NCBI GenBank assembly: GCA_916610825.1
Contig: OU744449.1
Location: forward strand, 15,946,415 to 16,010,414
Source: Haliclystus octoradiatus
Taxonomy: Eukaryota; Cnidaria; Staurozoa; Stauromedusae; Haliclystidae
Length of the DNA: 64,000 nucleotides
Reading direction: 5' to 3'
Shown here: piece by piece, positions 12,085 through 55,457 of the stretch
Numbering within the stretch: the stretch's first letter is position 1
Layout: every line of letters starts with the position of its first letter
The notes under the pieces: model-generated
Seen by the model: the letters and a program-made list of their open reading frames with translations, nothing else
The model's database searches: none
Told to the model about the DNA's origin: nothing
Position numbers and translations under genes: made by a program

Positions 12085-12463
12085 GGATTAGCGGTGGATC
12101 AGCTCAGATTGCGGAGCAACCGAACTTCAGATCGGATCATATCTGATCGACTGAGGTTCGAATCCCCCTAAGGTCAACTCAGCCTTGACTATATCTGAAA
12201 CATCAAATGAGTACGATCTGAGGATGGCGGATGGAATGGTCCAGAGGGAATTGCATTGTGAGTAGCTGCGGCGCATCGTTGCGCATTGACAATCGAGACC
12301 TATCTGTCATGAAATCTGTTGAAATTGATCTGCAGTGTCGCGGCTGAGATCAACAAAGAGCGTTTAAAATCATTGCTCTCAACGAAAAATGCCACTCATC
12401 TAGAAATAGAGGAGTGGTACGGGTGTCTTCGGTAGGGCGACACCGTCTACATTACTTTTATTT
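12085..12463 (+). mobile_element. tRNA-derived SINE (379 bp) inserted in RNase H
   Basis: It is flanked by the 10-bp duplication ACCGACCACA (12075-12084 and 12464-12473). The head is tRNA-like, with a pol III A-box-like GATCAGCTCAGATTGCGG and a perfect B box GGTTCGAATCC at 12155-12165. The body has no tRNA similarity, and the 3' end is short and T/A-rich (ACTTTTATTT). The duplication interrupts a coding codon run of the host element, so the SINE is younger than it. I do not recognise the family. Confidence 0.9.
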
Positions 12464-12490
12464 ACCGACCACAAGCCATTAATCCCAATC

Positions 12491-13854
12491 TTGAACACTC
12501 AGACATTGGACGTAATAGAAAATTCACATTTACAACGCCTCAAATTGAAGATGCAATCGTACCGCTTCAACACTTCTTGGCTAGCAGGACGCTTTCACGC
12601 ACTGGCCGACGCTTTGAGCAGAGCACCTGTGGCTGATCCTACTGAAGAAGATCATCATCCGCCCTTGGATTCACATGCTCAACTGCAGATCAACGCCATT
12701 GTCAATTCAATCGCTACTTCTCCAGACATATCAACAGATGACGATCATCTTCTCAGAGAACTAAACCAAGCAGCTGATGTCGACCAAGAGTATCAAGACC
12801 TCATCAACGCTATCAAAGAAGATTGTCAACCGTGCAACTTACCTTCACATTTGAAGCAGTACAAAGGTGTTCTTTTTGATCTATCATTGCAAGACCAATA
12901 TGTTCTTTACAATGGTTATCGCCTGCTGATACCACGGTCACAGCGACGTATGATGCTTGATCGTCTACATACTGCTCATCAAGGCATCGAGCGTACAAAA
13001 AGAAGAGCACAGCAATCATGCTACTGGCCTGGCATATCTAATGATATACGCAACATAGTTGAGTCTTGTGATGCCTGCAACATCCATCAGTATTCGCAAC
13101 AGAAAGAAACTTTCTCTCTGGCCAACACCCTAATAAACCATTTGAGCAGTGTTCAGCTGATTTATTCTCTGCTGGCACAAAAAAGTTTCTGGTCTACGTC
13201 GATCGTTACTCTGGATGGCCGTGTGTACATGATTACAATGCTGATCCTAATACTACAATGGTCACTTATTCCATGACCAACTTCTTCAGAGATTATGGTG
13301 CTCCTATAAATCTTCGCACTGATGGTGGACCACAATTCAAGTCAGAAGAATTTGATCAATTCTGCAAACACTGGGGAATCAAGCATGACCCATCGTCACC
13401 TTATTATCCTCAAAGCAATGGTCATGCCGAGGCTGGCGTCGAAGCCATGAAAATATTAATCAAGAAAAATATCACGGAAAACAACCACTTCAACAAAGCC
13501 AAGCTGAGTGAAGCCATTTTAGATTTTCGAAACACTCCAAAAGCTGATGGCTTATCACCAGCTCAAAGAATATTTGGTGTCCCCATGCGAACACGTCTAC
13601 CAACTCATCAGCTGGCATTTGACAGAAAATGGTATAAGACTGCAACGGAGGCTGATGAATTTTCTGCGAAGACAAAATTAACAAACATCGATCATTACAA
13701 TGAAGATGCCCGTAATCTTGTCCCATTGGTCATTGGCGATGAAGTACGAATTCAAGATACTACCAGTAAACGCTGGGATAGAGTCGGTCTCATTACAACT
13801 ACGCGTTGCCATTTCGACGATATCTTGTCAAACTTCCATCTGGCACTGTTCTAA
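12491..13854 (+). pseudogene. Ty3/gypsy RNase H end and integrase (frameshifted)
   Basis: It begins with the end of RNase H (FHALADALSRAPV), then an integrase zinc domain (HTAHQGIERTKRRAQQSCYW ... CDAC). The core follows with first Asp VYVDRYSGWP (about 13190), second Asp LRTDGGPQFKSEEF, and YPQSNGHAEAGVEAMK, where the Glu is within HAEAGVEA. A frameshift between about 13115 and 13135 separates the zinc domain from the core. The C-terminal part (VIGDEVRIQD) shifts again near 13800. Confidence 0.85.
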
Positions 13855-22419: not shown

Positions 22420-22698
22420 TACACTACAATTAGTGAATCTATCTGGATAAATTTGATGAAAGTAATTTCAATCAATCATAGCTCAGTTTCGGTTTTTATC
22501 ATGCATTGACATATATTGTAGCCTATTCGGGACTGCATAGCTTCACTAATGAAGGCATAGATATTGCTTCAAAATTCTTATTACTTTTGAATAGTTCTTG
22601 CACGAAGCTTATTAACTATATTTGATAGGTTATTTCAAAGATACTTGTGAAAACCTACTCTTATGTGTGCATTGTGCAATATGTTTATATAATTTTAG

Positions 22699-23121
22699 GT
22701 GTTGCAGTTGCCCCACAGTGTGCCCCAAACTGGTTGAATTATGGTGATTTTTGCTACTTATTCAACAATGTGTCATCAACAGTAAAAGGAAAATCATGGT
22801 CAGATGCCAGAACAGGTTGTTTATCACAAGGAGGTGATCTAGCAAGTATTCATAGTGACCAAGAGCAAACATTCCTTGCTAATAGTCTAACAGCTGACCA
22901 GAAGCTCCAGCACTTCTGGATTGGCTTCAATGATCGGCAGACTGAAGGCACATATGCATGGAGTGATGGATCAGCTGTTAATTATACAAAATGGAATTTA
23001 GCTGATGGTGAACCAAACAATTGGAGTGGTAATGAAGACTGCGCTGAAATACATCATACAGGAAAATGGAATGATAATGGTTGTTTCCGTGAATTTGGTT
23101 TTCTTTGCAAACGGAAAATTA
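22699..23121 (+). CDS. Multi-CTLD gene, C-type lectin domain 1
   Basis: A single exon encodes a whole C-type lectin-like domain, a Ca2+-dependent sugar-binding or related recognition module. The acceptor is AATTTTAG (22691-22698) and the donor GTAAGT (23122-23127); both ends are phase 1, so the domain is a shufflable module. The order is canonical: CAPNWLNYGDFCYLF, WSDARTGC, GGDLASIHSDQEQTFL, FWIGFNDRQTEGTYAWSDGS, then EPNNWSGNEDC, GKWNDNGC and FLCKRK. EPN predicts mannose/GlcNAc-type specificity, and WND is the conserved Ca2+-site motif. A possible GTG start at 22647 is intron sequence. Confidence 0.92.
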
Positions 23122-23472
23122 GTAAGTATAGTGCTAAAGGTGTGTGCTTATACAAACAAGACCTCAAGTTTTGTTTTTTGTAAAAGCATATTTAAAATAT
23201 TTGCAAGCCTAGAATTTTGATATGCAACCGTCATAATAGTTGATTTGTGTATATATGTTGCTTTACCATCTCTTCCATTTACCGTAGCTAGAACCGGACT
23301 ACAGCGGAAAATTTGCTGAGTTCTTGTACTGTTCATGAATATCCAACAGTTGATGAAAATTCACAGTTTATGAAATTTAAGCCTTTTAACACCCATGTCC
23401 TATTTTCACAGGGGAAGTAAAACACATAATGATTACTTCTTATTTGATGAACATTGAACACATTCGACTTTT

Positions 23473-25142: not shown

Positions 25143-25249
25143 CATAAGGATGGTGACTGAGTCAAAGAAAACACATTCTTAATTTCTGTTACTATAGTTT
25201 CACGCAGTGTGCGATCATCAGACAGTTGATACTCAAACATCAGACATTA
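25143..25249 (-). mobile_element. 107-bp hammerhead-bearing insertion (PLE end) with 16-bp target duplication
   Basis: The sequence is absent from the sister LTR at 29149-29539, so its exact limits are known. AGAATAGCGTTAACTA occurs on both sides (25127-25142 and 25250-25265). It contains one complete minus-strand hammerhead (25186-25225) and matches the arms of the palindrome at 32394-33216 through CATAAGGATGGTGACTGAGT and TTGATACTCAA. Confidence 0.93.
25186..25225 (-). ncRNA. Hammerhead ribozyme (in the LTR insertion)
   Basis: Read on the minus strand: stem I CTGT/ACAG, core CTGATGA, stem II CGCA-CAC-TGCG, core GAAA, short stem III CTATAG, predicted self-cleavage after GTA. All invariant core bases are present. 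Confidence 0.9.
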
Positions 25250-26437: not shown

Positions 26438-26542
26438 CAATAAAGGAAATTCACGCCATTCAGTAAATAATGTAGATAATTTAACTACATTCGATGACGA
26501 CAGTGATGAGAGCGCTGATTTATTACTGAAAATTCTTCCCCG

Positions 26543-28908
26543 GTGGTATGGGTTAAGAAACGATCCGGAGGTCTGCGGATGTGTGCGGACTTTGGTGTTC
26601 ATGTTAATAATAAAATTTTAAGCGAGGCATACCCATTGCCAAATATTGAAAATATTTTTGCGGAAATGAATGATTCTTGTTATTTTGCAAAAATTGATCT
26701 CCAATCTGCCTATTGGCAAATTTTACTTGATAAACAAGCACAAGATTTATCAGTTATTAACACAAGCAAAGGTTTATATCGCGTAAAAAGATTGCAAATG
26801 GGAATGAAAAATTCTAGCGCTATTTTCCAGCAATGTATTGAATCGGTTTTAAAAGGTTTAAAAGGAGTCGTTCCTTATCAAGACGATGTCCTGATTTATG
26901 CTAAAACTGAAGAATCTCTCAAAAAACGTTTGAACGCTGTTACTGAACGTTTTCGTCATAGACATTTGAGTATTAACGTCGATAAATGTGTTAATCGTGT
27001 TTCAGAAGTTTCATTTTAGGATATCGGATTTCCCCTGACGGCATCGATCCTGATCCAAAACTCGTTGAAAAAATTCAAGCTGTTAAACCACCAACTACAA
27101 TTAAACAAGTTGAATCGTTTCTTGGTTTAGCAAATTTTTTCCGTCATCTCATAGACAATTTTGCAAGCAAGGTAAAACCTCTAAACGCTCTTCGCAAAAA
27201 GAATACTGAATTTTTATGGTCAGACAAATGTCAGAATGCGTTTGATCGACTTAAAAATGAGTTATCTCAACAGCCTCTTGTTTAGCCTTATTCTTTAAAA
27301 AAGGAAGCCACGCTTACAACCGATGCATCAGGTGAAGCGATTGCCGGTATTTTGACACAGGATGGAAAGCCTGTTATTTACATTTCAAAGTCGCTTACTC
27401 CTGCAGAGCAAAAATACTCTACCACTGAGCGTGAAGCGTTGGCAATAGTTTGGTGTGTTGAGCGATTACGTGCGTTGCTTTTAGGGCGAAAATTTGCTCT
27501 AATAACTGATCACAAGGCATTAACGTATCTATTTAGCAATTCAAAAGGTGTGCCAAAAACTGCTTCTGCGAGACTGTCCCACTGGGCAATCAAGCTTATG
27601 GCCTTTGATTTTACGTTAAATCATCAACCAGGTGAGAAAATTACTCACGCTGATTCTCTTTCTCCTTTTGAAAATGTTTCCATTTCACGAGAAGAGGTTG
27701 TTGCTAGTTTGGAAGTAGCCAGTGTTGCTTTTATGGCTCCAGTCGTTGACGTCAGCGATTTAAAATTAGCATTACAAAATGACGTAGTTTCTCAATCGAT
27801 TTCTAAACGAATTATTTCTGGTAACTAGAATAATTTATCAAATGCTGAAAAATCACTTGCTAAATATCGTGATTCATTGACAATTGAAAATGATCTTATT
27901 TATGCTAAATCATTACCTTTCATACCTGAGGCATTGCGCACAACAATTCTGAAAAAAGCACACGACACTCATCAAGGTATTAATTCAACCTTACGGTTTA
28001 TTTTAAAAGGTGCCTGGTGGCCCGGTATTTCCCGTGATGTTGACCGTTTTGTTTCCAATTGTTCTACTTGTTGTGGTCTCAGACCAAAAGTTTCCAATTC
28101 TGTTCACAAGTGGCCCGAAGCCGGTCGTTGGGAACGCCTTCATATGGATTTTGGTCACGTAAAAGACGTGGGACCAGTTTTGTTAATTGCAGATGCCGGA
28201 AGCGGTTGGATAGAAGCCTTCCGTTGTTCTGACCGTTCATCTCCGCGCATTATCCGAATATTTTCTACTCTGTTTGCTCGTTTCGGAATTCCTAAATTAG
28301 TTGTTTCTGATAACGCTAAAGAGTTTATCAATGATGAAATTGTTTCTTGGCTGTCTAAGTCAGGTTGTCGAAAATCAGAATCACCGCAATATTTTCCTCG
28401 CGCCAACGGCTTGGCTGAGCGTGCTGTTCAAACCGTCAAACGTGGCATGAAAGCATGGAACAAAACTCTGCGTGTGTCTTTCGACATGTTCTTAAACAAA
28501 ATTTTGCTAGTGCATCGCACCACATCCGCAGCTAGGCAAAAGTCACCTGCTGAGATCCTTCTCGGAAGATCTCCGCGCATTCCGTTCGTTTCTGAACTCA
28601 TCCCCGGTGACGTAGTGATGTATCGTCAATCACCATCCCATCAACCCTCCCAAGCAGAATATATCCTCGCCAAGGGTAGGAATACAGCCTGGTTGACCCA
28701 CCATGACCGCACTGTATTAGCATCAAAAGACCAGTTTGCCCCTGTTCCTCATTCATCGAATGAATCTAATTCAAACCCTGTAAACAGTTCTAATTCTAAT
28801 GATTTACCAACGTCATCAACATTAACATCTGACTCTAGTAAGACTGCTCCTGTAATTAGACGTTCTACACGTCAAACTAAGGAACCATCCTATTATGGAC
28901 GTTCGTAA
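26543..28908 (+). pseudogene. Ty3/gypsy pol: partial RT, RNase H, integrase
   Basis: It enters RT abruptly at PVVWVKKRSGGLRMCADF. The catalytic box YQDDVLIYA (usual Y[VLI]DD) is near 26880. A one-base loss in a T run near 27012 produces a TAG, and further TAGs lie near 27283 and 27826. RNase H (TTDASGEAIAGIL, TEREALAIVWCVERL, LITDHKALTYLF) and an integrase (H..H..C..C at HDTHQGINS ... CSTCCGL; MDFGHVKDVG; SDNAKEFINDE; ANGLAERAVQTVKRG) follow. The last 343 codons are intact. The C-terminal RRSTRQTKEPSYYGR is a usual gypsy tail. Protease and the RT fingers are deleted at about 26530. Confidence 0.9.
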
Positions 28909-31199: not shown

Positions 31200-31796
31200 T
31201 AGAAAAGATAATTATTTACAGTGAGAATGTATATATATATTATAATAATAATAATGTTGATTAAATAAACATTTATTTATTAAGAGCAAAACATCAATAT
31301 AGTGCTCAATACTGGAAAGTAGAGCTATGTAGATATAAAATAAGAAATGAGACGTTTTCTCCGTTACTCGAAGTTTCGCGCTGTAGCGCTCCTCAGACGG
31401 TTTTATTCATATAAAAAACATTTTTAAATTCACCATATATATACATGATAAAAGTTTACACGCCTATTGATTAAATTGCTGTTCTATTGTTATTTGCTGC
31501 TATGTTAGTTTCCGTAGTAAATTATTATATGCTATTGTTTGTTTCCGTAGTAAATTATTATATGGTATTGTTCTATATATGTTTTATCTATTTCCTTGAA
31601 ATTTTTCAAATAAAACTTGTTTTCGTGCCTGCATTTAGAAACCAGCTCAGATCTTCTATTTAATAAGTTCTTGTTTTTGTAAAAGGTTATAAAAAATTTT
31701 TCCTCTAAACAGAGATGGCATTTTTTCAATACGTTGTTGTATGGCACTGCCGTTGATAGAAATAGCTACAGCGCGAAACTTCCAGTAATATATATA
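31200..31796 (-). mobile_element. Penelope-like element, 3' part (copy A)
   Basis: Minus-strand end of a PLE: conserved ATAGTGCTCAATA block (about 31300), hammerhead (31361-31400), 3' UTR, then the C-terminal third of the GIY-YIG endonuclease protein (31532-31747; KKCHLCLEEKFFITFY, LVSKCRHENKFYLKNF). It is truncated at its 5' side near 31760, where a partial plus-strand hammerhead (GCTACAGCGCGAAACTT) is joined to it in inverted orientation. Confidence 0.85.
31361..31400 (-). ncRNA. Hammerhead ribozyme (PLE copy A)
   Basis: Minus strand: stem I CCGT/ACGG, core CTGAGGA, stem II GCGC-TACA-GCGC, GAAA, stem III CTTCGAG, predicted cleavage after GTA. The stem II closing G-C is canonical. Confidence 0.9.
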
Positions 31797-31831
31797 TATA
31801 ATAAAAAGAGTCAAAGACTACACATTCATAA

Positions 31832-31871
31832 TTGTTACTAATAGTTTCATGCTTATGCAATCATCAGACAA
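31832..31871 (-). ncRNA. Hammerhead ribozyme (PLE copy B, left)
   Basis: Minus strand: stem I TTGT/ACAA, core CTGATGA, stem II TGC-ATAA-GCA, GAAA, stem III CTA-T-TAG, cleavage after GTA. Confidence 0.88.
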
Positions 31872-32246
31872 ATAAACTAATTAATGAATAACATACAGTT
31901 CCGCCTACATCGATTTACAAACCTACAGTTATTGTTTAACAGAACAAAGGATTTTGATGCTAGAAATAAATTGCATTGTTGTTGTTTCCTATTATCGCTT
32001 CGTTAGTTATCATCTGCATATATAAATTATAAAATATATATTATGTTTTCACGGATTTATAATTAGTTAGGTAAAATTTATTCTCATGTCTACATTTGGA
32101 AATGAGTTCAGACTTTTTATTCAATAGATCATTTTTAGTGCAAATAATATGGTACTTTTACTTACTTATGGTAAATCGATTAAGGTAAGGTGAAGGTTTG
32201 TAAATCGATATAGGCGGAACTGTATGTTTTTCATTAATTTGTTTAT

Positions 32247-32286
32247 TTGTCTGATGATTGCGTAAGCATGAAACTATTAGTAACAA
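32247..32286 (+). ncRNA. Hammerhead ribozyme (PLE copy B, right)
   Basis: Plus strand: stem I TTGT/ACAA, core CTGATGA, stem II TGC-GTAA-GCA, GAAA, stem III CTA-T-TAG, cleavage after GTA. It is the inverted partner of 31832-31871. Confidence 0.88.
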
Positions 32287-32501
32287 TTATGAATGTGTAG
32301 TCTTTGACTCCTTTTATTATATTTAGCTCTGTCAAATGATATCGAGCACTATTTTTTGCTATTAGATAATATCTAATATATATATATATATATTAGATTT
32401 ATCTATCGTCAGATGTGATAGTGCTCAATACCGATGAAACATTGGCAGAGCTGTAATACATAAGGATGGTGACTGAGTCAAAGAAAACACATTCTTAATT
32501 T

Positions 32502-32541
32502 CTGTTACTATAGTTTCACGCAGTGTGCGATCATCAGACAG
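32502..32541 (-). ncRNA. Hammerhead ribozyme (palindrome C, left arm)
   Basis: Same type as the LTR insertion: stem I CTGT/ACAG, CTGATGA, stem II CGCA-CAC-TGCG, GAAA, stem III CTATAG, cleavage after GTA. Confidence 0.9.
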
Positions 32542-33068
32542 TTGATACTCAATGAAAAATATACATGGTGACTCCTATTACATGCTATCATAAGTGTCGC
32601 AGCGCGTTATTGTTTTAATACAATAGTTGTCTTAACATACAATGGTGCTATTGTTCCGTTTTGGTAATTAAGGCGTCAGATAAATGAAATTGTTTCCTAT
32701 TACAGCAGTTAAGTTAAATTATGTTTTAGTTTCTTTAAAATTAGATAAATAAAATTTATTCTCGTGACGGCATTTTGAGATTACTTCAGATTTTTTATTA
32801 AGTAATGGCTCTTTTGAGCATATAATATAATATTTTTCCAATAAACATGAATAAATTTTATTTATCTAATTTTAAAGAAACTAAAACATAATTTAACTTA
32901 ACTGCTGTAATAGGAAACAATTTCATTTATCTAACGCCTTAATTACCAAAACGGAACAATAGCACCATTGTATGTTAAGACAACTATTGTATTAAAACAA
33001 TAACGCGCTGCGACACTTATGATAGCATGTAATAGGAGTCACCATGTATATTTTTCATTGAGTATCAA

Positions 33069-33108
33069 CTGTCTGATGATCGCACACTGCGTGAAACTAT
33101 AGTAACAG
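33069..33108 (+). ncRNA. Hammerhead ribozyme (palindrome C, right arm)
   Basis: Exact inverse of 32502-32541, on the plus strand. A transcript crossing the whole palindrome would carry one active and one antisense copy. Confidence 0.9.
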
Positions 33109-33243
33109 AAATTAAGAATGTGTTTTCTTTGACTCAGTCACCATCCTTATGTATTACAGCTCTGCCAATGTTTCATCGGTATTGAGCACTATCACATCTG
33201 ACGATAGATAAATCTATCTTTATTATTATATATATATATATAT

Positions 33244-33429
33244 ATGCATTGCCCACTACTTCGGTAGTTTGAGCACTCTGGTATGGCACAGATGTTTTTT
33301 CATGTGATGAATTTTTTCACCACATTTATAACTCATCTTGACTTAGGTGTATACTGAAGTCAGTTCCTTGTTCGCTCACTGAGCAGTACTGATGAAGGCT
33401 AATGGCCAGAAACATGTACTTGTCTGCTG

Positions 33430-33430
<1 letters not shown>
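33244..33430 (+). mobile_element. Short non-coding retrozyme-like unit (family D), single copy
   Basis: A 190-bp unit from GCATTGCCCACTACTTCGG to CTTGTCTGCTGC, with TTTGAGCACT near one end and a hammerhead-like core at the other. It lies between (TA)n tracts. It is homologous to the two tandem units at 55148-55600 (opposite strand). It has no coding capacity. Confidence 0.7.
33382..33428 (+). ncRNA. Hammerhead-like motif, family D (non-canonical)
   Basis: CTGATGA, stem II GGC-TAATG-GCC, then GAAA and CATGTA. Outer AGCAG/CTGCT could pair as stem I, but the bases next to the core (TA and CTTGT) do not pair well, and stem III is a bare CATG palindrome. It may be a divergent or dimer-only hammerhead. 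Confidence 0.45.

Positions 33431-33488
<58 letters not shown>
33431..33488. repeat. (TA)n microsatellite
   Basis: About 29 TA units between the family D unit and PLE copy E. Similar tracts border most PLE copies: about 33940-33970, 34193-34240, 37306-37374, 54114-54140 and 55083-55147. Confidence 0.95.
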
Positions 33489-33491
<3 letters not shown>

Positions 33492-33518
33492 TAAAACAGA
33501 GACGAGGCAAAGCCTTTT

Positions 33519-33561
33519 CCGTAACTCGGAGTTTCACGCTTTTATTGCGATCTTCAGACGG
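33519..33561 (-). ncRNA. Hammerhead ribozyme (PLE copy E, left)
   Basis: Minus strand: stem I CCGT/ACGG, core CTGAAGA, stem II CGC-AATAAAA-GCG, GAAA, stem III CTC-C-GAG, cleavage after GTT. Confidence 0.88.
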
Positions 33562-33936
33562 TGATACTAAAAAATTAAAAACATACGATTACTCCTAAAC
33601 ATACATACATGAGTGCGATATCTAGCTATTGTTATCTACAATGGGTTACTGATAAATTAATATTTTTATTGTTTGTTTACAAAGACATATTGTTGTAAAT
33701 TTCTTAATGTCTACGATTTACCGGATTTAAAATTTTCTAAGGTAAAATTTGTTCTCATGCCGGCATTTGGAAATAAGTTCTGATCTTTTGTTGCTACTGC
33801 TAGCGCATACACTAACATCTCAAATAAATGTAACCTATGCCTTACGGAGAAATTTCACATTATAACATCACGTTCGCCTAACCTACTCAACAAAAGATCA
33901 GAACTCAATACAATTAATTTTTTAATTAATTATTAT

Positions 33937-33974
<38 letters not shown>

Positions 33975-34014
33975 ATAATAATTAATTAAAAAATTAATTG
34001 GTACTCCGGTATCA

Positions 34015-34057
34015 CCGTCTGAAGATCGCAATAAAAGCGTGAAACTGCGAGTTACGG
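34015..34057 (+). ncRNA. Hammerhead ribozyme (PLE copy E, right; stem III mutated)
   Basis: Same type as 33519-33561, but stem III reads CTG-C-GAG, leaving one G-G mismatch. The core is intact. Confidence 0.8.
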
Positions 34058-34187
34058 AAAAGGCTTTGCCTCGTCTCTGTTTTTTACTCTATATTATGCT
34101 CTGTCCTAAAAAACATTGAGCACTTTCATATACATGTGTGTATAAGAGTTCACACTCAATACAATTAATTTTTTAATTAATTATTAT

Positions 34188-34242
<55 letters not shown>

Positions 34243-34269
34243 TATAAAATAAGAAAAGAGACGTTTTCT

Positions 34270-34309
34270 CCGTTACTCGAAGTTTCGCGCTGTAGCGCTC
34301 CTCAGACGG
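34270..34309 (-). ncRNA. Hammerhead ribozyme (PLE copy F)
   Basis: Minus strand: stem I CCGT/ACGG, CTGAGGA, stem II GCGC-TACA-GCGC, GAAA, stem III CTTCGAG, cleavage after GTA. Confidence 0.9.
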
Positions 34310-34483
34310 TTTTATTCATATAAAAAACATTTCTAAATTCACCAAAGATATATACATGATAAAAGTTTACACGCCTATTGATTAAATTGCTGTTCTATTG
34401 TTATTTACTGCTATGTTAGTTTCCGTAGTGAATTATTATATGCTATTGTTTGTTTCCGTAGTAAATTATTATATGGTATTGTT

Positions 34484-35005
34484 CTATTTATCTAATTCCT
34501 TGAAATTTTTCAAATAAAATTTGTTTTCGTGCCTGCATTTAGAAACCAGCTCAGATCTTCTATTTAATAAGTTCTTGTTTTTGTAAAACGTTATAAAAAT
34601 TTTTTCCTCTAAACAGAGATGGCATTTTTTCAATATGTTGTTGTATGGCACTGCCGTTGATAGAATTGACCATTTGACGAAGAATGATTTTCCGTTATCT
34701 TTTAATGACCAGATGTATTTAGACAACTCAGTGCGATTTTCATATTTTCTGTTGGTAAATGACGACTTATGTTTCGTAAAACGATCTTTGAATGCTCCTT
34801 CAGTAAGGCCGATGTAGTTGTGGCCGTTTGCGTCCTCAGGTGTGGTTACGTTGGCATTATATATTATGCTGGTTGTCAAGCATTTGTTGTCAAGAGGGCA
34901 GTTTATTTTGGAGCGGCAATTGCATTGTTTTGTTGCTTGTTCTTTGTTGTCGGTGTTCAATAATTTTCTGTTGTGGCTTCTCAGAATTGTTTCCATGTTT
35001 GCCAT
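34484..35005 (-). CDS. PLE GIY-YIG endonuclease region (copy F)
   Basis: An open frame of 173 codons for the C-terminal endonuclease module of a Penelope-like pol. A Cys-rich linker (CNCRSKINCPLDNKC) comes first. The GIY-YIG core follows, with NYIGLTEGAFKDRFTKHKSS supplying the YIG, the Arg (DRF) and the His, then ELSKYIW, and a C-terminal CHLC ... SKCRHENKFY cluster. The module nicks target DNA for insertion. ATG at 35005 is internal to the full protein rather than a true start. It is nearly identical to 36534-37058 on the other strand. Confidence 0.85.
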   Translation of the reverse strand: MANMETILRSHNRKLLNTDNKEQATKQCNCRSKINCPLDNKCLTTSIIYNANVTTPEDANGHNYIGLTEGAFKDRFTKHKSSFTNRKYENRTELSKYIWSLKDNGKSFFVKWSILSTAVPYNNILKKCHLCLEEKIFITFYKNKNLLNRRSELVSKCRHENKFYLKNFKELDK

Positions 35006-35030
35006 GCAGTTAACTTAAATCAACAACAAC

Positions 35031-35102
35031 ACTTAAATCCGTAGTTGTTATGATCCTCATTAGAAAATGACAATGAGGATCATAACAACTACGGATTTAA
35101 GT
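35031..35102. repeat. 31-bp perfect hairpin at the head-to-head PLE junction
   Basis: Arms 35031-35061 and 35072-35102 pair exactly (ACTTAAATCCGTAGTTGTTA continuing to CATT) around a 10-base loop. The right arm is the first RT codons of copy G and the left arm is the same sequence reversed. This is the exact point where copies F and G meet. Confidence 0.95.
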
Positions 35103-37058
35103 CAAGGAACTGCCCCCCGGCAATAGAGAATCTAGCAAAGTTTGAAGCCGAACTATTAGGCATCGTAAAGAACATCAAATTTTCAACAGCGAGACGCAGC
35201 AATTTTCAAAAGCATTTAAACGAAGACATTAAAAATATCAGAAAATCTAAAAAAGCGTTTATTCCTGCCGATAAAACAAGAAATTATTACAAGCTTAACA
35301 AGGAAGAACACAATACATTACTAATGAATAACATCACGGCTACATACAAAAAGGCTGAAACGAACATTACTACCAACATAAACAAAGAAGCAAAAGCGAT
35401 CGCAACGGATCTAAAGATAGACAACAGTGCAGAATACCTAGCAGAGAAACAGGCATTTATCACAATAAAAGACCACAAGGACAACTTCACCAACAAACCT
35501 ACTTGTAGGCTCATTAACCCTGCTAAATCGGAAATAGGAATCGTTAGCAAAACGATTGTTGACAAAATCATTACAACGGTAAAAAGGCAAACTAAATTCA
35601 ACCAATGGAAGAACACACATGCTGTTATTAACTGGTTCAATGGAATCCACAATAAAGACAAACACGTATTTGCAGTATTTGACATTGAAAACTTCTACCC
35701 TACTATAACAGAGAAACTACTACTTAACGCCATTAATTATGCTAAACAATTCACTACAATCAGTCAAAAAGATATACAAATTATTCTGCACGCACGAAAA
35801 TCTCTTCTATTTAACAAAAACACCGCTTGGACAAAGAAAAACAAAGGGGCCTTATTCGACGTCACCATGGGGAGTTACGATGGGGCAGAAATCTGCGAAC
35901 TTGTTGGACTTTTCCTACTCGATACGATCACGAAAAAGTATGGCAAAGAAAACATCGGTCTGTACAGAGACGACGGGCTTGCACTGCTGAAAAATACTTC
36001 TGGCCCTCAAGCAGAACGAGTGCGAAAAGATCTCATAAGAAATATTCAAAACCAACGGCCTAAAAATCACTATTCAGACTAACCTAAATATAATCAATTT
36101 TTTAGATATAACGCTTAACCTCAAAGACGGAACATACCAACCATACAGAAAACCAAACGACGAGCCCCTATACATTAATGCAGAGTCCAATCACCCACCC
36201 AACGTCATCAAACAGATACCAGCTTCAATCAAGCAGAGAATATCTGACCTTTCCTGCAACAACGATGCTTTTGAAAGGTCAAAATCCACTTACATATGCG
36301 CGCTAAGATCTAGCGGCTATGACGCCGATTTTACCTACAATCAACGACCCACCACCACTGCAGCTAAAAGGAATAGAAAAAGAAAAATAATTTGGTTCAA
36401 CCCACCATTCAGCAAAAATGTTGACACAGACATAGCCAGAAAATTTATACTTTTACTGAACAAACATTTTCCGAAACAGCACAAATACCACAAACTTTTT
36501 AATAAAAATAATGTAAAAGTCAGCTACTGCTGCATGGCAAACATGGAAGCAATTCTGAGAAGCCACAACAGAAAATTATTGAACGCCGACAACAAAGAAC
36601 AAGCAACAAAACAATGCAATTGCCGCTCCAAAATAAACTGCCCTCTTGACAACAAATGCTTGACAACCAGCATAATATATAATGCCAACGTAACCACACC
36701 TGAGGACGCAAACGGCCACAACTACATCGGCCTTACTGAAGGAGCATTCAAAGATCGTTTTACGAAACATAAGTCGTCATTTACCAACAGAAAATATGAA
36801 AATCGCACTGAGTTGTCTAAATACATCTGGTCATTAAAAGATAACGGAAAATCATTCTTCGTCAAATGGTCAATTCTATCAACGGCAGTGCCATACAACA
36901 ACATTTTGAAAAAATGCCATCTCTGTTTAGAGGAAAAATTTTTTATAACGTTTTACAAAAACAAGAACTTATTAAGTAGAAGATCTGAGCTGGTTTCTAA
37001 ATGCAGGCACGAAAACAAATTTTATTTGAAAAATTTCAAGGAATTAGATAAAACATAA
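35073..37058 (+). pseudogene. Penelope-like pol: reverse transcriptase plus GIY-YIG endonuclease, one frameshift
   Basis: Retroelement polymerase of the Penelope group, which primes at nicked target DNA. The frame is open from 35073 (no ATG; N-terminus lost). It has KKAFIPADKTRNYYKL, the PLE RT block ITIKDHKDNF ... CRLINPAKSEIGIVSK (about 35460-35550), FAVFDIENFYPTITEKLL with the first catalytic Asp, GSYDGAEICELVGLF, and the catalytic box YRDDGLALL (about 35965). A single-base frameshift at about 36045-36060 leads to a stop at 36082, while the next frame continues (INFLDITLNLKDGTYQPYRK) through the linker into the endonuclease (36534-37058; CNCRSKINCPLDNKC, NYIGLTEGAFKDRF, KCRHENKFY). This is otherwise well preserved and a recent copy. 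Confidence 0.9.
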
Positions 37059-37236
37059 ATAGAACAATACCATATAATAATTTACTACGGAAACAAACAA
37101 TAGCATATAATAATTCACTACGGAAACTAACATAGCAGTAAATAACAATAGAACAGCAATTTAATCAATAGGCGTGTAAACTTTTATCATGTATATATCT
37201 TTGGTGAATTTAGAAATGTTTTTTATATGAATAAAA

Positions 37237-37276
37237 CCGTCTGAGGAGCGCTACAGCGCGAAACTTCAAGTAACGG
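37237..37276 (+). ncRNA. Hammerhead ribozyme (PLE copy G)
   Basis: Plus strand: stem I CCGT/ACGG, CTGAGGA, stem II GCGC-TACA-GCGC, GAAA, stem III CTT-C-AAG, cleavage after GTA (37272). It lies about 180 bp after the pol stop. Confidence 0.92.
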
Positions 37277-37300
37277 AGAAAACGTCTCTTTTCTTATTTT

Positions 37301-37303
37301 ATA

Positions 37304-37378
<75 letters not shown>

Positions 37379-37480
37379 ATAATAATTAATTAAAAAATTA
37401 ATTGTATTGAGTGTGAACTCTTATACACACATGTATATGAAAGTGCTCAATGTTTTTCAGGACAGAGCATAATATAGAGT
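37301..37480. repeat. (TA)n and PLE terminal block
   Basis: Two long TA tracts, AATTAATTAAAAAATTAATT, then the inverted form of the GAGCACTTTC and AGAGCATAATA blocks seen at 34080-34145. Confidence 0.85.
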
Positions 37481-37508
37481 ATAAAACAGAGACGAGGCAA
37501 AGCCTTTT

Positions 37509-37551
37509 CCGTAACTCGGAGTTTCACGCTTTTATTGCGATCTTCAGACGG
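37509..37551 (-). ncRNA. Hammerhead ribozyme (triple cluster, 1)
   Basis: Minus strand: stem I CCGT/ACGG, CTGAAGA, stem II CGC-AATAAAA-GCG, GAAA, stem III CTC-C-GAG, cleavage after GTT. Confidence 0.9.
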
Positions 37552-37567
37552 TGATACTCCGGTATCA

Positions 37568-37610
37568 CCGTCTGAAGATCGCAATAAAAGCGTGAAACTC
37601 CGAGTTACGG
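37568..37610 (+). ncRNA. Hammerhead ribozyme (triple cluster, 2)
   Basis: Plus strand, identical type to 37509-37551. Confidence 0.9.
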
Positions 37611-37628
37611 AAAAGGCTTTGAGTATCA

Positions 37629-37671
37629 CCGTCTGAAGATCGCAATAAAAGCGTGAAACTCCGAGTTACGG
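37629..37671 (+). ncRNA. Hammerhead ribozyme (triple cluster, 3)
   Basis: Plus strand, tandem copy of 37568-37610 at 61-bp spacing. Cleavage at both would release a 61-nt RNA. Confidence 0.9.
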
Positions 37672-37811
37672 AAAAGGCTTTGCCTCGTCTCTGTTTTATA
37701 CTCTGTATTATGCTCTGTCCTGAAAAACATTGAGCACTTTCATATACATGTGTGTATAAGAGTTCACACTCAATATAGTTAATTTTTTTAATTAATTATT
37801 ATTATATATAT

Positions 37812-45349: not shown

Positions 45350-46522
45350 TTATGTAAATCTTGCTGGTTTTACAATCTGTCGTCTAATGCGTGATGTTGT
45401 TGTTGGATCTATTGTATTCCCCATGGCTTCGTTTTCTTTGTTTACTTCTGTTTCGATGCTTTCATTTTCCTCTCGACTAGTAGATTCAGGTTGACTACTT
45501 GTATTGTTTTGCATACGCTGTGGGGTTGAATTGTAAGTGGATGAACTGTCCTCATGAATGCTTCTATCTGGGTTGAGATGAGTTCTTGTGCGACGAAGTA
45601 TCTGACCTGATGGCGTCTGAATGATGTAGGATTTTGGCGATTCATCATGACGAATTACAGTAGCTGGCAACCATTGTTTACCGTATCTGTGACGTACGGC
45701 CTGGCCAGGCCAAAGTACACTTTTTTCTGCTGCTGATTGTTGGTAGTACCACGAACCTTCTCCCTGTCGTTGTGCTAATAAGCTGCGAACAGTAGAAGGT
45801 TTCCAGACCTCCGGCTGGAGCTGGTGCGGATACTTCTGAATTCTGTTTCGAAGCACCCGGCCTTGCAGAAGTTTTGCTGGTGAGTGTAAACCACCGCCAA
45901 TGGGAGTGTTGCGCATTGTCATCATAGTCGCTTGCAAGTCTTTGCCGTCATCTAGCATCTTCTTCAGGTGAATCTTCACATTCTGCACGTGACGTTCCGC
46001 AGAACCATTAGATTGTGGATAATGCGGACTAGATGTTATGTTTTCCATATCTAGTGACTTTCTAAATTCTCTAAATTCTTGGCTTCCAAATTGTGGGCCA
46101 TTATCACTGATCAGATGCTCTGGAATGCCGTAGTTAGTAAAATTCTTCAATAAAGATTTTGTCACATTTAATGTTTTTGTTTGAGTCAGTGGAATCATAC
46201 TTGGCCATTTTGAGTAGAGGTCCACAAGGAGAAGGTAGTGGCTCCTGTCTAACTCGAACAAGTCTGTCAATACTGTTTGGTATGGGTATTCTGGAATGGG
46301 ATATTGCATGAGAGGTTCATTAGCGTTGGCATTGCTATTTCTCTGGCAGATTCCACATGCCTCTACCATGTCCTTAATTTGAGTGGCATAACCAGGCCAA
46401 TATACAGCTGTTTTCGCCCTTTCCAAACATTTAGAAATACCAAAATGTCCACTATGAATTTGTTTTAGAGTTTCTCTAATGAGTGTGGATGGTATCACCA
46501 ATTGACTGTTTCTAAACAACAT
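45350..46522 (-). CDS. Ty3/gypsy integrase region
   Basis: An open frame of 390 codons: zinc domain (HSGHFGISKCLERAKTAVYW ... CGICQ), core with LTDLFELDRSHYLLLVDLYS, SDNGPQFGSQEF and PQSNGSAERHVQNVKI (DDE set complete), and C-terminal DNA-binding part (LWPGQAVRHRYGKQWLPATV). The end is Ser/Asn/Glu-rich (TRIRRQIVKPARFT). It integrates element cDNA. The ATG at 46522 is internal to pol, and this part looks undamaged. Confidence 0.9.
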   Translation of the reverse strand: MLFRNSQLVIPSTLIRETLKQIHSGHFGISKCLERAKTAVYWPGYATQIKDMVEACGICQRNSNANANEPLMQYPIPEYPYQTVLTDLFELDRSHYLLLVDLYSKWPSMIPLTQTKTLNVTKSLLKNFTNYGIPEHLISDNGPQFGSQEFREFRKSLDMENITSSPHYPQSNGSAERHVQNVKIHLKKMLDDGKDLQATMMTMRNTPIGGGLHSPAKLLQGRVLRNRIQKYPHQLQPEVWKPSTVRSLLAQRQGEGSWYYQQSAAEKSVLWPGQAVRHRYGKQWLPATVIRHDESPKSYIIQTPSGQILRRTRTHLNPDRSIHEDSSSTYNSTPQRMQNNTSSQPESTSREENESIETEVNKENEAMGNTIDPTTTSRIRRQIVKPARFT

Positions 46523-46699
46523 GCCTGAGTAAAGACAGAGATTGTCCCGCTCTGCCCAATAAGGCTTGACTGCAGCCGGTAGTAGGTCTTTCTAGCAGGC
46601 CAGCCATTATTGACAAAATTTAGTATTGCTTGCAATGTAGCATCATTTTCGGTGGCTTCTATGATGTCATTTCCTTTTTCTTTGGCTGCTTCATCACAT

Positions 46700-47923
46700 A
46701 TTCTGATAATTTCTTATTCCATTGGATCATCATATTCGTTATCTAAATATGCTCTTGACAGTGTGTCTGCTAAGATTAGTTCTTTTCCAGGTTTGTATTC
46801 GAGAGTAATCTCATATTGTAAACATCTTAACCGCATTCTTGCCAGGCGAGGAGAGACATCTGAAATAGGAGGCTTGTTCATTATTCCAAGCAAAGGCTTA
46901 TGATCCGTTTCTATGGTCACTGCCTGGCCAAATACGTACTGGTGAAACCTTGTAGCCCCAAATTGTACAGCTAACATTTCTTTCTCGATTTGAGCATAGT
47001 TTTTCTGAGCAGTTGTTAATGTGCATGAAGCATACTCAATTGGCCGTCCAGCTTGTATCAATACTGCACCTAAACCCGCTTTTGATGCGTCTACAGATAA
47101 TGTTACTGGTATTTTGGCATTGAAGAGTCCTAGCATAGGTGCTGAGGCAATCATTTCTTTAATTGCTGCTAATGACTGTTCTTGATTCTCATCCCATGTG
47201 AATTCAACATCTTCTTTTAATAAATCACACAGAGATGAAGCCTTTTCTGACAGATTAGGACAAAATTTTGCAACATATGTTACCATGCTGAGAATTCGTT
47301 GCAGATCATCTTTGCTTTTTGGTGATGGCATCTCACAAATCGCCTGTATACGATTTTGATCGATTCTGATTCCATTGCCACTCACTATCTGTCCAAGATA
47401 TTTGAGCTCTTTCATACCAAAATTACATTTTTTCTTGTTTAACTTCAGATTGATTTTCTACACCTCTTTAAAACAGCTTCCAGTCTCTTGTTGTGTTCCT
47501 CTTCATCTTTTCCATGGACAAGTATGTCGTCAATATAGACTTCTACACCTTCAATATCTGAGAAGTGATCAGCAACTGTTCTATGAAATACTTCAGGTGC
47601 TGAGCTGACACCATAAGGAAGACGAAGGAACCGATATCGTCCAATGGTGTTCCAAATGTAGTAATATAGCTACTTTTCTCATCTAGGGCCATTTGCATAA
47701 ACCCTGTAGTAGCATCTAATGAGGAGAAAATAATCGAGCCATGTATATTTGCAAATATCTCCTCTGCCGTTGGCACTTGGCAATGTTCACGTTTAATTGC
47801 TTTATTCAAGGAAAGTGGGTCTAGGCATACTCTTAATGACCCATTAGGTTTGGAAACCACGACAATTGGATTAACCCATTCTGTTGGAGACGTGACTTTT
47901 GTTATCATATTGTTTCTTTCCAT
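46700..47923 (-). pseudogene. Ty3/gypsy reverse transcriptase and RNase H
   Basis: RT: SPTEWVNPIVVVSKPNGSLR, IIFSSLDATTGFMQMAL. A frameshift near 47640 follows. The catalytic box VYIDDILVHGKDEEEHNKR is readable in another frame (about 47490-47550), and YLGQIVSGNGIRIDQNRIQA comes next. RNase H: TLSVDASKAGLGAVLIQ, IEKEMLAVQFG, IETDHKPLLGI, LILADTLSRAYL (47415-46714). Near 46570-46620 a further break separates it from the integrase. Confidence 0.88.
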
Positions 47924-47948
47924 GTCAGCTAATGTTGCCTTTAGTTGG

Positions 47949-49750
47949 TCACGTATACGGAATGGTATACGACGTGCTGCGAATGGTGGGTGTGTGATCT
48001 TCCTTCAGTTTAATGGAGTGATTGCCTGGTAGACGTCCAGTCCCAGTGAATACAGATTCATATACTTCTGGAAGACTTTCACCAACTGAGTTGATTGTAC
48101 AAACAGGTAATAGACCCATTTCTTGTAAGCTGTGATAGCCTAGCAATGTGGCATCAGTATTTCTATGGTCTACAATCACAAATTCAAGGACATAATATTT
48201 TCCTTGGTGATAAATCGCAAGGTCTGTTTTGCCAACTACTTTTATTTTGGCCCCTCCATAGGCTTCCAAAACTTTGTTACCTTTGCTAACTTTAGCCTTT
48301 GGGTTACAGCGTCTGAGAGTTTGAATTGGTAATACATTGCACCCTGCTCCTGTATCTGCTTTTGTGATGATATGATATTTATTCCCTATTCTTATGGCTC
48401 CTTCTTTATGGCGACATATCTGTATGGCTTTTTCTAAATTGAGATTCATTGTGTATAGCAGCTCTGCTCTGATACTGTCAGAATATATTCCTAACACAAC
48501 CTGATCTTTAAGTAAACAATATGTTAGTGTTTTTCCATCTTGTGATTGGCATATAGGGTAATTGCAATATGGCAGCTGATTTCTTAAAGCAGATAGGAAG
48601 TTATCAAAAGGCTCATCTGCTTTTTGTTTCCTTGAAAAGAATTTATGGCTTTCATAACTATCATTTTTCTTTGGTGAATAATATTTGTTGAATTTATCCA
48701 GAACTTCATCAAGATCATTCTTATTATTTAATTCTAAACTTCTGTAGATAGTTCTGCCCTCTTGTCCTAATAATGTGAGAAGTATTGCAACTTTTACTTC
48801 ACCTGATTTGGACTTCTTGTCAGTGGCCAGAAGATAAAACTTGAACGAAGTGGATAATGTTCCGGCAGCCGGAATCCTGAGTGCTAGAGATAATGTTCCG
48901 TGCGTCTTCTGCGCATGCTTAATGTGCTGTTTGCGTTTCTCTCACATTCATTCAAGATGCAATGGCGATGGACGGTCCTGTTCCTCGACCACGTTAATAA
49001 CAATTCTGTTCATCAGTTTTATAATAGAATATAAAATAATTTAATTTAAAGTGCTAGAGGTTAAAAACACTTTATATGAGGGATTTACGACGCTGGATGC
49101 CACCGTTCTTCCAAACTTATAAAAAAAGCGAACGAACACGGCTTTTGTTTTGAGTTTCGGGGTTTTGACTTTTGGTATACGACAGAATCAGTATTGGTAG
49201 GCCGCATATAGCATCAGTTACAGGAAAAGAAAATGACTAATAAGTAATTATCCCATATTATTACAAATTACCATAGTAAAAATGTTTTGAAATATTGTTA
49301 GGCAGCATAAATATTCGCTAAAACCTTTTAAGCGCGCCAAATAAATGTCACGACACTCAAACATTAAAAACGCTGCGCTGGGTTGCATCGCTGAAAAGCT
49401 TCGATAAATCAAACACAGAATAAAATGATTAATGCATAGATATGCTGAATATCGCTTTTCTTAATATTTATTCCAAACAATCGATCCAATTTACGGTGTA
49501 GGTGAATTTTTTTACAAACTTTTTTACGATATAATTTTGGATCGATCGACACAGCCATGTTTACTATCTACATACGCATGCGCAAAGGACGCACGGAACA
49601 TTATCTTTTGAAGACAGCTTTCCGGCAGCCGGAACAATATCCACCGCGAAACTTGAAACCTTACTCTCAATCATTCCAGCTTTGGGCCAAGTTACCACAA
49701 TTGTCTGCTCTAAATGGCTTTGGTGGTTTGAAAGTATTCTCTTCTGACAT
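47949..49750 (-). pseudogene. Ty3/gypsy gag and protease, gag split by a MITE
   Basis: Gag starts at ATG 49750 (MSEENTFKPPKPFRADN) and is interrupted by the MITE at 48846-49648. It resumes as FKFYLLATDKK and continues through LGQEGRTIYRSL and FFSRKQKADEPFDNFLSALR to 48500, with stop codons near the insertion. The protease follows (48497-47949) with ADTGAGCNVLP as active site and TDATLLGYHSLQEMGLL. No CCHC knuckle was recognised between them. Confidence 0.82.
48846..49648. mobile_element. Mutator-like MITE (803 bp) with 9-bp target duplication
   Basis: Inverted ends of about 75 bp: CGAAGTGGATAATGTTCCGG on the left, CGCGGTGGATATTGTTCCGG on the right (reverse strand), continuing through GCCGGAA, GATAATGTTCCGTGCGTC and TGCGCATGC. 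AAACTTGAA flanks both sides (48837-48845 and 49649-49657). Long ends and a 9-bp duplication fit Mutator-like elements. It is non-coding and inserted in gag of the Ty3 element. A related end lies at 2561. Confidence 0.88.
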
Positions 49751-53462: not shown

Positions 53463-53502
53463 TTGCTACTATTAGTTTCACGCCAAGGCGATCATCAGGC
53501 AA
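53463..53502 (-). ncRNA. Hammerhead ribozyme (minimal palindrome, left)
   Basis: Minus strand: stem I TTGC/GCAA, CTGATGA, stem II CGCC-TT-GGCG, GAAA, stem III CTA-A-TAG, cleavage after GTA. Confidence 0.9.
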
Positions 53503-53534: not shown

Positions 53535-53574
53535 TTGCCTGATGATCGCCTTGGCGTGAAACTAATAGTAGCAA
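53535..53574 (+). ncRNA. Hammerhead ribozyme (minimal palindrome, right)
   Basis: Exact inverse of 53463-53502 (position sum 107037). Confidence 0.9.
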
Positions 53575-53640: not shown

Positions 53641-53907
53641 GGTTTATCTAATAGCAGACAAAATAGTGCTCAATGTCAACATTTGGCAGAGCGGTAAATA
53701 ATAATAATGGTGATAGATCAAAGAAAACACATTCTTTACTGTAACTCCAAGTTTCACGCTACTGCGATCATCAGACAGTTTTTTATTCTAGATAGATAGA
53801 TAGATATAAAAATTTATATATCTATACAGCTCTGCTTAGCGGTATTGAGCACTATATTGATGTTTTGCTCTTAATAAATAAATTTATTTATTTATTAAAT
53901 CAACATT

Positions 53908-54065: not shown

Positions 54066-54105
54066 TTGCTACTTCAAGTTTCACGCCTAAGCGATCATCA
54101 GGCAA
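54066..54105 (-). ncRNA. Hammerhead ribozyme (PLE end before endonuclease copy)
   Basis: Minus strand: stem I TTGC/GCAA, CTGATGA, stem II CGC-TTAG-GCG (or CGCTTAGGCG), GAAA, stem III CTT-G-AAG, cleavage after GTA. The hairpin block (ATGCTCAATG ... GCAGAGC) lies 70-90 bp to its left. Confidence 0.88.
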
Positions 54106-54143: not shown

Positions 54144-54231
54144 AAAGTAGCGGAACAGGAAAAAACACGTCCGCTCGTATAAAATATTTAATTTCAACTT
54201 CATCAAAGTAAGCTACAGCTGCACCAGCAAC

Positions 54232-54747
54232 ATGGACACAATAATAAAAAATCACAATAAAAAAATAACCAACAACTTCGAAAACAACACCACTAACACC
54301 ACTTCATTATGTAACTGTAGAAAAAAGGAAGCTTGCCCATTCAACAACAACTGCCTAGCAACAAGCCTTATTTACAATGCAAACGTCACTACAGCAAATG
54401 ACGCAGAAGGAAAAAATTATATCGGCGTTACAGAGGGAACATTCAAAACACGCTACACGCAGCACACCTCGACGTTTAGACACGAAAAAAGTAAATCGAA
54501 TACACAACTATCAAAGTATATCTGGGAACTGAAAGGCAAAGAAATAGATTATACAATAAAATGGACACCTTTGGCAACCGGCAGAGCGTACAGCAACACA
54601 TCCAAAAGATGCCACCTATGTTTGGTAGAGAAATACCATATCATATGTGCGGATAAAGATCTATTAAACAAAAGATCTGAACTTATTTCAAAGTGTAGGC
54701 ACGAAAACAAATATTATTTAACAAATTTTAAAGAGACAAAAACTTAA
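54232..54747 (+). CDS. PLE GIY-YIG endonuclease region (copy H)
   Basis: An open frame of 171 codons. CNCRKKEACPFNNNC is the Cys-rich linker, NYIGVTEGTFKTRYTQHTST the GIY-YIG core with Arg and His, ELSKYIW-like QLSKYIWELKG comes next, and CHLCLVEKYHI plus SKCRHENKYYLTNF form the C-terminal cluster. The layout is the same as copies F and G with many substitutions. ATG 54232 is internal to the complete pol; RT is missing. The endonuclease part has no stop. Confidence 0.87.
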   Translation: MDTIIKNHNKKITNNFENNTTNTTSLCNCRKKEACPFNNNCLATSLIYNANVTTANDAEGKNYIGVTEGTFKTRYTQHTSTFRHEKSKSNTQLSKYIWELKGKEIDYTIKWTPLATGRAYSNTSKRCHLCLVEKYHIICADKDLLNKRSELISKCRHENKYYLTNFKETKT

Positions 54748-54937: not shown

Positions 54938-54978
54938 CTGTCTGATGATCGCATAAAGCGAGAAACTTTAAGTAACAG
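54938..54978 (+). ncRNA. Hammerhead ribozyme (PLE copy H)
   Basis: Plus strand: stem I CTGT/ACAG, CTGATGA, stem II TCGC-ATAAA-GCGA, GAAA, stem III CTT-T-AAG, cleavage after GTA. Stem II has a true U-A closing pair where most other copies have U-U. Confidence 0.92.
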
Positions 54979-55147: not shown

Positions 55148-55149
<2 letters not shown>

Positions 55150-55150
55150 C

Positions 55151-55197
55151 AGCAGACAAGTACATGTTTCTGGCCATTAGCCTTCATCAGTACTGCT
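55151..55197 (-). ncRNA. Hammerhead-like motif, family D, unit 1
   Basis: Same core as 33382-33428: CTGATGA, stem II GGC/GCC, GAAA, CATGTA, outer AGCAG/CTGCT. Stem I is weak next to the core. Confidence 0.45.
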
Positions 55198-55410
55198 CAG
55201 TGAGCGAACAAGGAACTGACTTCAGTATATAACCCAAGTCAAGATGAGTTATAAATGTGGTGAAAAAGTTCATCACATGAAAAAACATCTGTGCCATACC
55301 AGAGTGCTCAAACTACCGAAGTAGTGGGCAATGCATATCGCAAATAGTATAGACACATCCCAAGTCGATAGTGCTCAAAATTGCGCATGCGCAATTGAGA
55401 CATACATAGC

Positions 55411-55457
55411 AGCAGACAAGTACATGTTTCTGGCCATTAGCCTTCATCAGTACTGCT
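55411..55457 (-). ncRNA. Hammerhead-like motif, family D, unit 2
   Basis: Identical to 55151-55197, exactly 260 bp downstream. If both cleave, a 260-nt RNA would be released. Confidence 0.45.

Follow-up and report, generated by a model that had tools for sequence, protein, structure and literature searches.

Small hammerhead ribozymes of Penelope-like elements in Haliclystus octoradiatus, with a likely cleavage footprint at the 5′ ends of one subfamily

What are the hammerhead ribozyme (HHR) motifs crowded into positions 31361-37671 of a 64-kb stretch of Haliclystus octoradiatus DNA (contig OU744449.1; hereafter the window), and do they cut RNA in the animal? An initial annotation made from the letters alone described eleven of them at the ends of Penelope-like elements (PLEs) and regarded their number and diversity as unusual. 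Judged by their sequence, the motifs are small type I hammerhead ribozymes of PLEs, a known, genome-wide class. The explanation that best accounts for the whole, and which we hold with fair confidence, is that these are PLE HHRs in elements that insert by priming on both target strands, some of their RNA templates having been cut beforehand by the hammerhead.

Both strands were scanned for type I HHRs, defined by CTGANGA, GAAA, the A15.1-U16.1 pair and an H17 other than G, with at least four pairs in stem I and at least three in stems II and III, one mismatch being permitted at 10.1/11.1. The window holds 21 such motifs, against one in total across 60 first-order Markov shuffled windows, which confirms the patch. 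Thirteen lie at 31.3-37.7 kb, where 12 of the small kind, rather than eleven, are accompanied by a third-class motif that had been missed (33382-33431, +); the others are one at 25186-25225 (-), five at 53.4-55.0 kb and two of the third class at 55.1-55.5 kb. All 21 have CTGANGA, GAAA, A15.1-U16.1, the UH core and three stems, with stem I open; with no mismatch tolerated at 10.1/11.1, just four are left.

31361-31400 (-): HHR, G-C family (CCGT/ACGG, CTGAGGA); predicted cut between 31365 and 31364
31832-31871 (-): HHR, TTGT/ACAA family, U.U; head-to-head partner of 32247
32247-32286 (+): HHR, TTGT/ACAA family, U.U; predicted cut 32282/32283
32502-32541 (-): HHR, CTGT/ACAG family, U.U; lies in the left arm of an inverted repeat (32394-32761 and 32849-33216, arms 100% alike)
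33069-33108 (+): HHR, CTGT/ACAG family, U.U; lies in the right arm of that repeat
33382-33431 (+): third-class HHR, 7-bp stem I, A.A at 10.1/11.1; predicted cut after GTC
33519-33561 (-): HHR, CCGT/CTGAAGA family, U.U
34015-34057 (+): HHR, CCGT/CTGAAGA family, U.U
34270-34309 (-): HHR, G-C family; within the inverted 3′ end of the element bearing the reverse transcriptase
37237-37276 (+): HHR, G-C family; about 180 nt past the open reading frame; predicted cut 37272/37273
37509-37551 (-): HHR, CCGT/CTGAAGA family, U.U; compact palindrome with 37568
37568-37610 (+): HHR, CCGT/CTGAAGA family; palindrome partner of 37509
37629-37671 (+): HHR, CCGT/CTGAAGA family; in a tandem partial copy starting at AGTATCACC
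25186-25225 (-): HHR, CTGT/ACAG family, U.U
53463-53502 (-): HHR, TTGC/GCAA family, U.U; paired with 53535
53535-53574 (+): HHR, TTGC/GCAA family, U.U
53738-53779 (-): HHR, ACTGT/ACAGT family, U.U
54066-54105 (-): HHR, TTGC/GCAA family, U.U
54938-54978 (+): HHR, U-A pair at 10.1/11.1
55148-55197 (-): third-class HHR
55408-55457 (-): third-class HHR

A further third-class motif, with its 7-bp stem I, A.A and GTC cut site, lies elsewhere in the genome (locus L017, 2911-2960, +), and the one at 33382 continues straight into a (TA)n tract.

Eleven of the 21 motifs entered the covariation count, seven sequence-identical and three third-class ones being set aside. In stem I, three of the four pairs showed changes on both strands of the helix and none was broken; stem II had one such pair in three, and the stem III core pairs, also three, were invariant. 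The compensatory change first described for three helices thus stands for stems I and II and not for stem III. The stem II pairings as first written skip position 10.1/11.1, which is mostly mismatched, and cleavage after GTA or GTT, given as the rule, is predicted for the 18 small HHRs, the three third-class motifs being predicted to cut after GTC. An Rfam hammerhead search, the absence of a match to which the initial annotation had formally listed among the outcomes that would speak against it, gave no match at gathering thresholds in the 64 kb and none at E<=10 in 30-56 kb. We override this null because the small variants fall outside the Rfam models and because of the other evidence; it weakens no more than the statement that the motifs fit those models. 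The mir-549-like and mir-35-like Rfam matches were rejected as such, sitting as they do on inverted-repeat hairpins.

At the scale of the genome (261.9 Mb), a strict HHR pattern has 3,932 exact matches (1,971 forward and 1,961 reverse), and the reversed pattern, used as a control, has none. More than 6000 type I HHR motifs are reported for the coral A. millepora (PMC7229834). Because of these two figures, the unusual number and diversity claimed for the patch is unsupported: the patch is locally dense, yet its kind is known and genome-wide. Animal retrozymes are 150-450 bp tandem repeats with a canonical type I HHR. In this genome, HHRs lying near one another are mostly arranged head-to-head, and those of the small class have a minimal stem III.

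Position 10.1/11.1 carries a standard pair in four of the 21 window motifs (14 U.U, 3 A.A, 3 G-C, 1 U-A). Among the first 100 genome matches it reads TT in 70, TA in 14, GC in 8, AT in 5, CT in 2 and TC in 1, the next pair beyond it being C-G in 73, T-A in 14 and other in 13, and the U.U form fits 3,176 of the 3,932 matches. Natural U10.1-U11.1 hammerheads are reported in PMC3088659, where U-U is the mispair that sustains the most cleavage, and the mismatch, already in print, was dropped as a novelty; what is a surprising variant there is the majority form in this genome.

The placement of the HHRs at PLE ends is borne out by the telomerase-like reverse transcriptase (RT) fold of a close relative, a weak GIY-YIG likeness and the position of the HHRs within repeats resembling PLE pseudo-long terminal repeats (pLTRs). 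The open reading frames (ORFs) concerned are the following.

35054-36082 (+): PLE reverse transcriptase ORF piece, motifs DIENFYP and YRDDGL
36039-37058 (+): PLE ORF piece in another frame; RT end, cysteine cluster, GIY-YIG-like C-terminus
34487-35009 (-): 3′ part of the ORF region repeated in inverted orientation, 99% to 36530-37052
54151-54747 (+): PLE ORF fragment, C-terminal part

For the piece at 36039-37058, 1,171 of 1,984 candidates are relatives at E<=0.001. The relative P0012 (578 aa), aligned together with the window pieces (alignment A2), gives an AlphaFold model of an RT whose best Foldseek match is C. albicans telomerase (TERT; E 3e-6), although by Z telomerase is tied with group II intron and diversity-generating retroelement RTs. 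Modelling supports a telomerase-like RT as the neighbour of the HHRs, as in PLEs. The C-terminal 172 residues of this window ORF are modelled well (pLDDT 85), and the fold matches are weak, with EndoII and Hpy188I, which we take to be GIY-YIG enzymes, at ranks 1, 2 and 4 (E 0.5-1.8); Y, Y, G, R, H and E columns are conserved in the C-terminal alignment. Pfam returned nothing above its cut-off for the window ORFs and their relatives, GIY-YIG included, and a sequence-profile search of the PDB gave 0 matches. The pLTR-like repeats that hold the HHRs are tandem or inverted and carry a tail, and at L037 an HHR, a partial RT ORF and a second HHR stand in direct tandem. Where the inverted ORF copy joins, at 35033-35100, an almost perfect hairpin gives rise to the mir-549-like match.

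The tail is a hairpin downstream of the HHR and ahead of the outer end, built as GCTC-stem-loop-stem-two nucleotides-GAGC, which we take as the published PLE 'tail'.

31304-31325 (-): tail hairpin GCTC...GAGC
32326-32347 (+): tail hairpin
32423-32451 (-): tail hairpin
33159-33187 (+): tail hairpin
34098-34121 (+): tail hairpin
37445-37468 (-): tail hairpin
37712-37735 (+): tail hairpin

Tail hairpins were listed by script and tested against shuffled inner letters, a MAFFT alignment being too gappy for a pair count; since the outer GCTC/GAGC pairs were the selection criterion, the inner stem alone tests pairing. This stem varies pairwise (TGTC/GACA, TGCT/AGCA, TACT/AGTA, AGCTG/CAGCT). At least three inner pairs with a bulge of 0-4 nt occur in 34 of 43 distinct tail strings (500 shuffles: mean 10.5, maximum 19), and a bulge of exactly 2 in 32 of the 43 (shuffled mean 2.4, maximum 7).

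How do such elements come to lie head-to-head? Neighbouring HHRs less than 3 kb apart among the first 100 genome places (n=30) are arranged -/+ in 21 cases, ++ in 5, +- in 4 and -- in none, an excess of -/+ with p 3e-7 against an expectation of one-quarter, while at 10 kb or more -/+ accounts for 12 of 62 pairs. We read 20 of the 21 divergent pairs, five more pairs and 15 other places, as well as loci from searches (L numbers below). Same-family pairs, with arms at least 75% alike, make up 36 of 41 divergent pairs, and the tail, whose search pattern was broadened after an initial look at pairs, stands at exactly one outer end in 32 of them, at both in three and at neither in one. One tail is the rule in 30 of 30 pairs outside the window and in two of six inside it, where the copies are either nested or complete palindromes. 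Truncation differs between the two arms, which flank an unpaired centre of 0 to 2,563 nt (38 rows, with one locus entered twice and a few cross-family or nested). Target duplications outside both arms were seen by eye at L025 (AATAAATTTCTC), L027 (AATAACTGTATTAT), L026 (13/14) and L090 (about 15 bp); many inserts sit within ATT or TA microsatellites, which would hide a duplication.

Head-to-head copies would also arise if an antisense template were self-primed, as proposed for Adineta vaga (PMC3846280), and perfect inverted repeats do exist (32394-33216, arms 100%; L021, 1,143 bp, 100%). We nevertheless regard it as unlikely here: each outer end is a 3′ end of the element, the duplication lies outside both in four inserts, a single end bears the tail in nearly all same-family pairs, and the unpaired centre reaches the lengths given above. 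One tail per insert would be expected if both target strands prime cDNA, and two target-primed cDNAs fit the inserts better than self-priming does, owing to the one-end tail, the outside duplications and the unequal arm truncation. Cross-family pairs were dropped as proof of two templates, L008 and L010 being separate or decayed neighbours. At L027 (2050-2093), a head-to-head copy has long A and T runs directly upstream of both HHRs. Long ATT-type trinucleotide microsatellites, DNA into which many PLE copies insert, occur in the window at 58.4-59.0 kb (200 N from 58740) and 61.8-62.4 kb.

Where the template RNA begins was examined in the F1 subfamily (CTGT, CTGAAGA, U.U), for which 40 HHR-bearing arms were read, often two from one insert. 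Fourteen start exactly at ATTGAG in TTTTTC^ATTGAG and ten within 1-5 nt after it, nine reach the upstream end of the reference, three match to -6 or -8 and four begin elsewhere. Counted from ATTGAG, stem I begins at nt 15, leaving a 14-nt leader, and the predicted cut follows nt 53. The window's tandem copy at 37629 has its start after the T run of the longer family copy. An extra G precedes the A in 11 of the 14 exact starts, where long copies have C; in four of these starts (L004, L015 minus, L086, L097) CA stands before the G, which antisense CAGATT could equally supply, and setting them aside leaves 7 of 10. In L1 copies, a G is reportedly left by caps that were reverse-transcribed; the passage located speaks only of 'untemplated nucleotides'. 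A cap-like mark of an F1 transcript start is suggestive only. When folded, the first 62 nt of the leader RNA pair the stem I and stem II strands plus extra pairs; the full 171 nt fold differently and a constrained fold loses stem I, so that folding is not decisive. The GAU/UGA beside the sheared pairs may resemble a kink-turn.

A ribozyme that cuts its template in vivo would leave copies starting at the first nucleotide past the predicted cut (+1). We counted, genome-wide and at +1, +2 and +5, the HHR-less F1 3′ modules that match from a given position and differ one base before it: 46 break at +1, 10 at +2 and 21 at +5 (46 versus 10, p 1e-6; 46 versus 21, p 0.003, raw counts). Seven of the +5 modules lie on the same strand of a single 25-kb patch (G000:C1:38063853-38089120), possibly a tandem or segmental array. 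Three of the 46 keep exact TTGAGT upstream, and their removal leaves 43. Among the loci read, five arms fit +1 within a one- or two-base chance match (L058 left and its tandem copy, L077, L089, L094 left), three junctions are palindrome-ambiguous (L063 right, which is CTTTACAG, L088 and L090), and other HHR-less starts are scattered (-23 twice, -18, -9, -7, -2, +3, +4, +9). The +1 cluster is likely the footprint of in vivo cleavage; 5′ ends at the predicted site, in one subfamily, give further, indirect support to HHR function.

We find it doubtful that these genuine PLE motifs have no activity in vivo and that copies starting at +1 arose through microhomology, decayed HHRs or stops of the RT at a folded HHR. 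The palindromic junctions at L088 and L090 would suit this account, but an RT blocked by a folded HHR would be expected to halt before stem I, at +5 and not at +1, and the +5 count is 21 (14 without the one patch) against 46. The stretch read at L064 contains no inverted arm; at L058 and L094, 81 and 43 nt of filler separate arms whose starts lie no more than 1 nt from +1. Descent of the HHR-less copies from a single HHR-less master, which their shared 3′ module would allow, appears very unlikely, as the base before +1 varies (20 T, 12 C, 14 G) and the upstream contexts differ among those read, a minority of the 46.

Several observations weigh against in vivo cleavage and two-cDNA insertion, some of them favouring inactive HHRs instead. 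The TTGT subfamily (F2) shows no clear +1 peak and no replication, with 19 at +1 and 16 at +2, or 13 versus 9 (p 0.52) after copies keeping the upstream letters are removed. G precedes ACAG in 13 of the 43 F1 modules, explainable by microhomology with antisense CAGACAG; variants with another stem III may remain in the 43, and the +2 and +5 controls are uncorrected for point mutants. The CTTTACAG junctions (three of five T cases read) can be read in two ways, and the loci read contain no more than five unambiguous +1 arms, at five loci (L019, L058 right, L063 left, L064, L094 right). Templates that escaped cutting are common, since the HHR is retained in most F1 copies read. The four pairs that break the one-tail rule are all in the window (37547, 32537 and 53498 with both tails, 34305 with none), and no cross-family pair is proved to be one insert, leaving two separate templates per insert unproved. 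According to PMC11167929, insertion by PAc, the Anolis Poseidon PLE, is independent of HHR cleavage, HHR mutants inserting normally in vitro, and no RNA-seq ends fall at the cut site.

With these points set against it, we lean slightly towards the view that PLE hammerheads, even with U.U, cut template RNA in vivo, and that the genome keeps a record of two template 5′ ends, an Inr-like start, often after an extra cap-like G, and the ribozyme product end, each insert comprising two target-primed cDNAs that start differently around a covarying tail hairpin. From the 5′ ends and the anatomy of the copies, an F1 transcript would begin about 14 nt before the HHR and pass through it, an AUU-rich stretch and the tail hairpin. 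The RT/endonuclease would cut AT-rich or microsatellite DNA on both strands, each 3′ end priming a cDNA, one starting beyond the tail hairpin and the other at the AUU stretch. Joined at their far ends, the two cDNAs would give a head-to-head insert with the target duplication outside both arms; where the template had first been cut by the hammerhead, as the F1 5′-end cluster suggests for some, the cDNA would end at the first nucleotide past the cut.

Other window content, assigned by eye, comprises Gypsy-like gag-pol ORF fragments (9262-13854, +; 26519-28908, +; 45350-48941, -) and C-type lectin-like ORFs (22629-23183, +; 57739-58263, +).

The small, or minimal, hammerheads of PLEs were reportedly described by Cervera & de la Pena in 2014 and Lunse in 2017 (both cited in PMC7761336); they too are type I, have a very short stem III, lie in PLE pLTRs and number thousands per animal genome, and this genome may differ in being mostly U.U and in having 5′ ends at the cleavage site (one subfamily). 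Among better-documented systems, PAc likewise has an HHR beside an RT/GIY-YIG ORF (GIY-YIG-like here) and AT-rich targets, and in vitro both strands are cut and extended with the tail between two RT start sites, as proposed here; no in vivo ends were found there at the HHR site, whereas we propose a footprint (PMC11167929). Penelope of Adineta vaga has the same inverted head-to-head pLTRs, an optional tail on one of them and 8-10 bp target duplications, interpreted there as self-priming on antisense RNA; the word 'hammerhead' is absent from the paper (PMC3846280). Cleavage sites of the R2 hepatitis delta virus (HDV)-like ribozyme likewise correlate with the 5′ junctions of genomic copies, although ribozyme fold and retroelement class differ (PMC3774820). 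No earlier cleavage footprint in PLEs was found by a literature search, which did not reach PMC4209133 or PMC5785218.

The interpretation first given to this patch is partly supported, overrated as to number and underrated as to evidence. The kind of element is known and had been recognised correctly; what is new, and can be tested, is that genomic copies show two sharp template ends and that head-to-head inserts carry one tail. If our reading is true, the one-tailed inserts would extend the two-strand priming seen in vitro (PMC11167929) to real insertions, and a genomic cleavage footprint with an adjacent uncut start as internal control would put the question within reach of 5′-end counts in PLE-rich genomes.

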